The position numbers and the translations under genes are program-made. A stretch of 64,000 nt of DNA from Halanaerobium praevalens DSM 2228. Lineage in GTDB: Bacteria > Bacillota > Halanaerobiia > Halanaerobiales > Halanaerobiaceae. Positions 22,022-22,429 of the stretch are shown here, piece by piece. The stretch covers positions 1,302,001 through 1,366,000 of the forward strand of contig NC_017455.1 in NCBI RefSeq assembly GCF_000165465.1. Direction: 5' to 3'. Position 1 is the stretch's first letter, and every line of letters starts with the position of its first letter. The notes below the pieces were generated by a model, which ran no database searches, had not been told where the DNA came from, and saw only the letters and a list, made by a program, of their open reading frames with translations.

Positions 22022-22142
22022 TAAAATTCCTCCTTTTAGTCTTATAAGCTTATAGGCTGTTCAAAAAGATTATGAAATATAATAATTATTAAATAAAGAT
22101 TATTTAATTTATTTTAAATCTTTTTAATTTAAATCCAAGCTA

Positions 22143-22171
22143 ATCTTAGCAAAATGACAGCCAATCGTCAA
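22143..22171 (-). promoter_or_regulatory. Possible second pflB promoter downstream of the riboswitch
   Basis: Minus-strand TTGACG (22166-22171) and TAAGAT (22143-22148) are 17 bases apart, 120 bases before pflB. If active it would give transcripts that bypass the riboswitch. Confidence 0.4.
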
Positions 22172-22261: not shown

Positions 22262-22373
22262 AAAAAAATCGCCCCCTGAATAAAATAAAGTTCTAATATC
22301 CAGGCGGGCGATTAATTAAAGATTATATTCCCCTATGGTTAAATCCATATTTATCCGCCAGTCATATAATCTA
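22262..22373 (-). promoter_or_regulatory. ZTP (pfl-motif) riboswitch with terminator
   Basis: On the minus strand the aptamer starts with GATTATATGACTGGCGG and continues ATGGATTTAACCATAGGGGA, closing P1 with ATATAATC. The conserved CGCCCGCCTGG half follows. These are the core elements of the ZTP/ZMP-sensing pfl motif. The same CGCCC strand can pair with GGGGGCGAT at 22268-22276, followed by seven T, to form a terminator. Ligand binding should therefore prevent termination. ZTP/ZMP accumulates when 10-formyl-tetrahydrofolate is short, and pyruvate formate-lyase supplies formate. Confidence 0.92.
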
Positions 22374-22400
22374 TTTATTTAAGTTTTAAATTACATCTAT

Positions 22401-22429
22401 AGTCTAGCAGATAATAATTTGCTTGTCAA
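22401..22429 (-). promoter_or_regulatory. Promoter of the riboswitch-controlled pfl transcript
   Basis: Minus-strand TTGACA (22424-22429) and TAGACT (22401-22406) are spaced by 17 bases, about 28 bases before the aptamer. Confidence 0.7.

Follow-up and report, generated by a model that had tools for sequence, protein, structure and literature searches.

A ZTP riboswitch ahead of the pflB-pflA operon of Halanaerobium praevalens, with a conserved putative second promoter behind its terminator

The pfl motif (RF01750), with its examples at pfl of Clostridium beijerinckii and in Thermosinus carboxydivorans, was linked in its original description to the route that leads from pfl via formate and formyl-THF to PurH (PMC2864571). 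Ligand and ON direction of the ZTP riboswitch family have been reported (PMC7337938), and several studies deal with the mechanism (PMC2864571, PMC7337938, PMC10085676). Here we analyzed a window of 64,000 nucleotides, positions 1,302,001-1,366,000 of the single-contig genome (2,309,262 bases) of Halanaerobium praevalens. On its minus strand a promoter (P1) is followed by a ZTP aptamer, an intrinsic terminator, a gap of 240 nt, pflB and pflA (Table 1). The locus shares with the described RF01750 systems the aptamer fold, the pseudoknot, the overlapping intrinsic terminator and the pfl target, and presumably also the transcriptional ON logic. It differs from them in a leader of greater length (240-287 nt between aptamer and ATG in Halanaerobium), in a conserved predicted second promoter (P2) located 3' of the terminator, and in a single bulged base kept on the pseudoknot strand. 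The riboswitch itself is ordinary and adds one more representative to a known class, in an already known arrangement. This agrees with the initial annotation, which had pointed to the situation for which the pfl motif was named, since the element lies at the very gene behind that name. Only the proposed bypass via P2 adds something new.

Table 1. Features of the pflB-pflA locus, numbered from the first base of the window.
Feature	Position	Strand	Support
P1, extended -10 promoter of the riboswitch transcript (TTGACA-17-TGC-TAGACT)	22401..22429	-	strict pattern; -35 invariant in 9 genus genomes
ZMP/ZTP riboswitch aptamer (P1, P2, P3 and pseudoknot GGCGG:CCGCC)	22291..22375	-	RF01750, 59.5 bits; covariation including the pseudoknot
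Intrinsic terminator (expression platform), overlapping the aptamer P3/pseudoknot strand	22262..22313	-	fold energy; comparable hairpin in 25/25 homologous loci
CATAGT-N5-ACT element, possible operator, just upstream of P2	22178..22191	-	region identity 0.86
P2, predicted second promoter, 3' of the terminator (TTGACG-17-TGC-TAAGAT)	22143..22171	-	conservation; strict pattern; mean promoter score
Conserved CTTATAAG and pflB ribosome-binding site AGGAGG	22029..22048	-	pre-ATG identity 0.87
pflB, formate C-acetyltransferase, 742 aa	19793..22021	-	TIGR01255, 1160 bits (cut-off 994)
pflA, PFL-activating radical SAM enzyme, 243 aa	19047..19778	-	TIGR02493, 316.5 bits (cut-off 231.75)

A cmscan search of the whole window matched RF01750 over its full length (1-86/86; E = 3.9e-7). 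The score of 59.5 bits clearly exceeds the gathering score of 39, so that the ZTP riboswitch call passed the covariance-model search which the initial annotation had named as its refutation test. The interval given there, 22262-22373, deviates by no more than 2 nt from the stretch covered by aptamer and terminator. Since the folding energy of the aptamer calculated without the pseudoknot is unexceptional (z -0.2), the case was made on the covariance model and on covariation. In an alignment of 25 homologous aptamers of the class, 98.4% of 576 pair cells are retained, compared with at most 48% paired in slid versions of the alignment. Two-sided changes occur at 15 of the 24 aptamer pairs, and none of 500 shuffles was as good. 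The pseudoknot, in which GGCGG of J1/2 pairs with CCGCC of the P3 loop, is paired in all 24 distinct sequences (100%), and three of its pairs covary.

The terminator, folded over 22314-22262, reaches -23.9 kcal/mol (z = -6.5), a stability matched by none of 200 shuffles, and closes with a run of seven U residues at 22268-22262. Its 5' arm includes the aptamer P3/pseudoknot strand CGCCCGCCUGGAU; hence aptamer and terminator exclude each other, and the expression platform is as first described. This overlap was seen in 25 of 25 loci. One unpaired G in the invaded strand is retained in nine Halanaerobium genomes. Non-complementary elements are likewise present in the terminator of C. beijerinckii, where the ON state drops when both natural bulges are removed (PMC10085676). 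By analogy, the single bulge in Halanaerobium may be a tuning feature.

The downstream genes form a true pflB-pflA operon, and the association between switch and gene extends through the genus. The aptamer is located directly ahead of pfl, 240-287 nt in front of it, in all nine genomes that carry pfl, and all three genomes without pfl also lack the switch (12 genomes, Fisher p = 0.0045 with kinship ignored). Among 61 genomes, both features were present in 18 and neither in 39, with two discordant cases in either direction (p = 2.5e-11), whereby these counts are not independent because the compared species are related. One discordant genome (G028) does contain pfl, cut by a contig end. Other targets of ZTP aptamers in the class are the formate-THF ligase gene fhs at six loci, two of them checked with Pfam, and folE at one locus. 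Genes of 10-formyl-THF or purine metabolism thus follow the aptamer here (pflBA) as well as in relatives (pfl, fhs, folE). Searching the entire 2,309,262-bp genome with the Rfam model yielded no second ZTP aptamer; a ZTP-pfl switch is confirmed in a halophilic fermenter with one ZTP element in its genome. We put the probability that the pflB-pflA operon is under a ZTP switch of the transcriptional ON type at about 0.93, a figure that covers the riboswitch on pfl apart from the activity of P2.

Ligand identity and ON direction are carried over from the family (PMC7337938), and by this analogy the predicted aptamer would bind ZMP/ZTP and raise read-through. RNA made from P1 would adopt the aptamer fold. 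A shortage of 10-formyl-THF would lead to accumulation of ZMP/ZTP, and the bound ligand would lock pseudoknot and P3, so that the terminator could not invade and transcription would read through into pflBA. PFL would then supply formate, which Fhs would convert to 10-formyl-THF for PurH. When ligand is absent, terminator formation would prevail, and P1 transcripts would end at about 22262.

The link between a fermentation enzyme and folate one-carbon status that the initial annotation drew is the pfl-formate-formyl-THF tie already stated with the motif (PMC2864571). The genome of H. praevalens encodes fhs, purH, folD and glyA. It also encodes PFOR, so PFL is not its sole pyruvate-cleaving enzyme, and together with the four one-carbon genes this makes the provision of formate for one-carbon units a sensible role of PFL beside PFOR. 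A THF riboswitch (69.4 bits; L126 1351-1444, minus strand) lies just 3' of fhs and precedes the S component of an ECF transporter, which is likely a folate transporter. H. praevalens hence possesses two distinct switches, one for ZTP and one for THF. The THF riboswitch (RF01831), of which one is present in this genome, likewise responds to folate status, but differs in aptamer, ligand and target and is not the pfl element. A c-di-GMP-I riboswitch (L127 2799-2885, plus strand) was found approximately 0.3 kb past the matched purH domain.

The initial annotation missed a predicted second promoter between terminator and pflB, located 121 nt from the pflB ATG. In the nine aligned leaders, the -35 core and the TG/-10 positions of P2 have a column identity of 1.00, whereas the spacer reaches 0.60 and the leader sequence 3' of P2 reaches 0.54. 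P1 shows a similar pattern in the nine genus genomes (-35 identity 1.00 versus 0.50 in the spacer). P2 thus consists of promoter-like hexamers at 17-nt spacing that are more conserved than their surroundings. Averaged over the nine gaps, the promoter score was 10.4, compared with 9.3 for the best of 200 shuffle sets. As 12% of shuffles equal the P2 score when the gap of the window is taken alone, the case for P2 is based on conservation and on enrichment of the strict pattern TTGAC-N15-TGnTAnnnT. This pattern occurs five times in the window versus 0.05 expected, about 100-fold above shuffles. Two of the matches are P1 and P2, two others precede the cobalamin riboswitch and the L21 leader, and the fifth lies near the window end. 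A general promoter scan did not outperform shuffles and was disregarded as evidence.

If P2 were not working, the riboswitch would be the sole gate of pfl and all pflBA mRNA would originate from P1, the usual situation of ZTP-pfl genes in clostridia. Of 17 clostridial pfl loci preceded by a ZTP aptamer, 14 indeed have a gap of just 63-116 nt in which no good promoter match occurs, and a short gap, of 80 nt, is also present in a genome of the same taxonomic order as H. praevalens (G017, L003). Against this stand the nine Halanaerobium genomes, all of which retain a gap of 240-287 nt with an invariant and correctly spaced promoter core while the spacer has diverged. The two clostridial loci with long gaps (L037 and L104, 268-274 nt) likewise contain strong promoter matches; the last of the 17 loci, with a gap of 909 nt, was left out of promoter scoring. 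Furthermore, besides P1 and P2, the matches to the enriched strict pattern are mostly located ahead of known leaders. We therefore regard a sole gate as unlikely, and P2 has a good chance of being an active promoter. The opposite extreme, in which the aptamer would be a decayed or non-binding relic and pfl driven by P2 alone, is highly improbable: the aptamer has kept its conserved positions and its pseudoknot, it is followed by a strong terminator, the -35 of P1 is invariant and the switch tracks the gene through the genus, although two genomes (G022 and G054) do carry pfl behind leaders with a promoter-like sequence and no ZTP aptamer.

Conservation of P2 behind the terminator, together with a P2-like promoter in a relative lacking the switch, suggests that transcription from the distal promoter P1 is probably all that the riboswitch gates, and that pfl has a second, ZTP-independent input. 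The claim that the switch controls pyruvate formate-lyase is hence borne out by the operon and by the co-occurrence of switch and gene (9/9 versus 0/3), but is most likely valid only for RNA that starts at P1. Just upstream of P2, the region of the CATAGT-N5-ACT element has an identity of 0.86 compared with 0.67 in the remaining gap, and similar elements were found in pfl leaders of another family (G033, L013; G022, L114). In G022, where pfl has no ZTP aptamer, a promoter is retained in front of the gene together with a CATAGTAAACTACT element. The element is possibly an operator for some regulator. A genome-wide search for ATAGT-N5-ACTCARGATTTGAC gave a mismatch-free hit only at the pfl copy, and therefore no regulon could be named.

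On balance, we lean towards a model in which pfl is transcribed from two tandem promoters split by the riboswitch. P1 would give a ZTP-gated anabolic transcript, whereas P2 would be blind to ZTP and may respond to a putative regulator at the adjoining CATAGT-N5-ACT element. As relatives keep a P2-like promoter without the switch, P2 might represent the core promoter, with the switch as an accessory to it. With adequate 10-formyl-THF, P1 transcripts would be terminated and PFL would come from ZTP-independent transcription of pflBA at P2, so that the switch would act as an anabolic boost atop a basal or otherwise regulated fermentative supply. Such a bypass, if true, would account for the dual use of one enzyme in fermentation and in one-carbon supply. 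The locus also suggests that the expression of a gene may depend only in part on the riboswitch ahead of it, as transcription from a conserved second promoter 3' of the terminator can avoid the switch. No ZTP riboswitch with an internal promoter was found in the literature searched, which does not prove that none has been described.

Several further features of pfl leaders were noted by eye. Four leaders of one family (f11; L021, L023, L119 and L024) carry, upstream of a promoter-like site, an inverted repeat resembling GTGAAAA-N7-TTTTCAC, and L024 contains a Fur-like AATGATAATCATT. A link to iron and Fur was considered and rejected: Fur-like and long inverted-repeat sites such as those seen by eye near the promoters of L024, L121, L037, L021 and L023 were not recognized in the window, and in C. 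difficile pflD/pflE fall rather than rise at low iron (PMC6311696). Hence, no iron link is claimed.

Other RNA elements of the window, all on the minus strand and above their gathering scores, are an FMN riboswitch (50687-50569), a cobalamin riboswitch (34511-34339) and a ribosomal L21 leader (59448-59370). In the pfl locus L115 (G033), one in-frame TAG interrupts an otherwise full-length pfl, due either to an assembly error or to a broken gene. Ahead of another pfl gene (L140 328-2505; G053:C5:56900-60300) lies a group II intron with a domain V (RF00029) and a reverse transcriptase/maturase ORF. It seems to begin exactly at the U-run of the ZTP riboswitch terminator, thereby separating the riboswitch from pfl.
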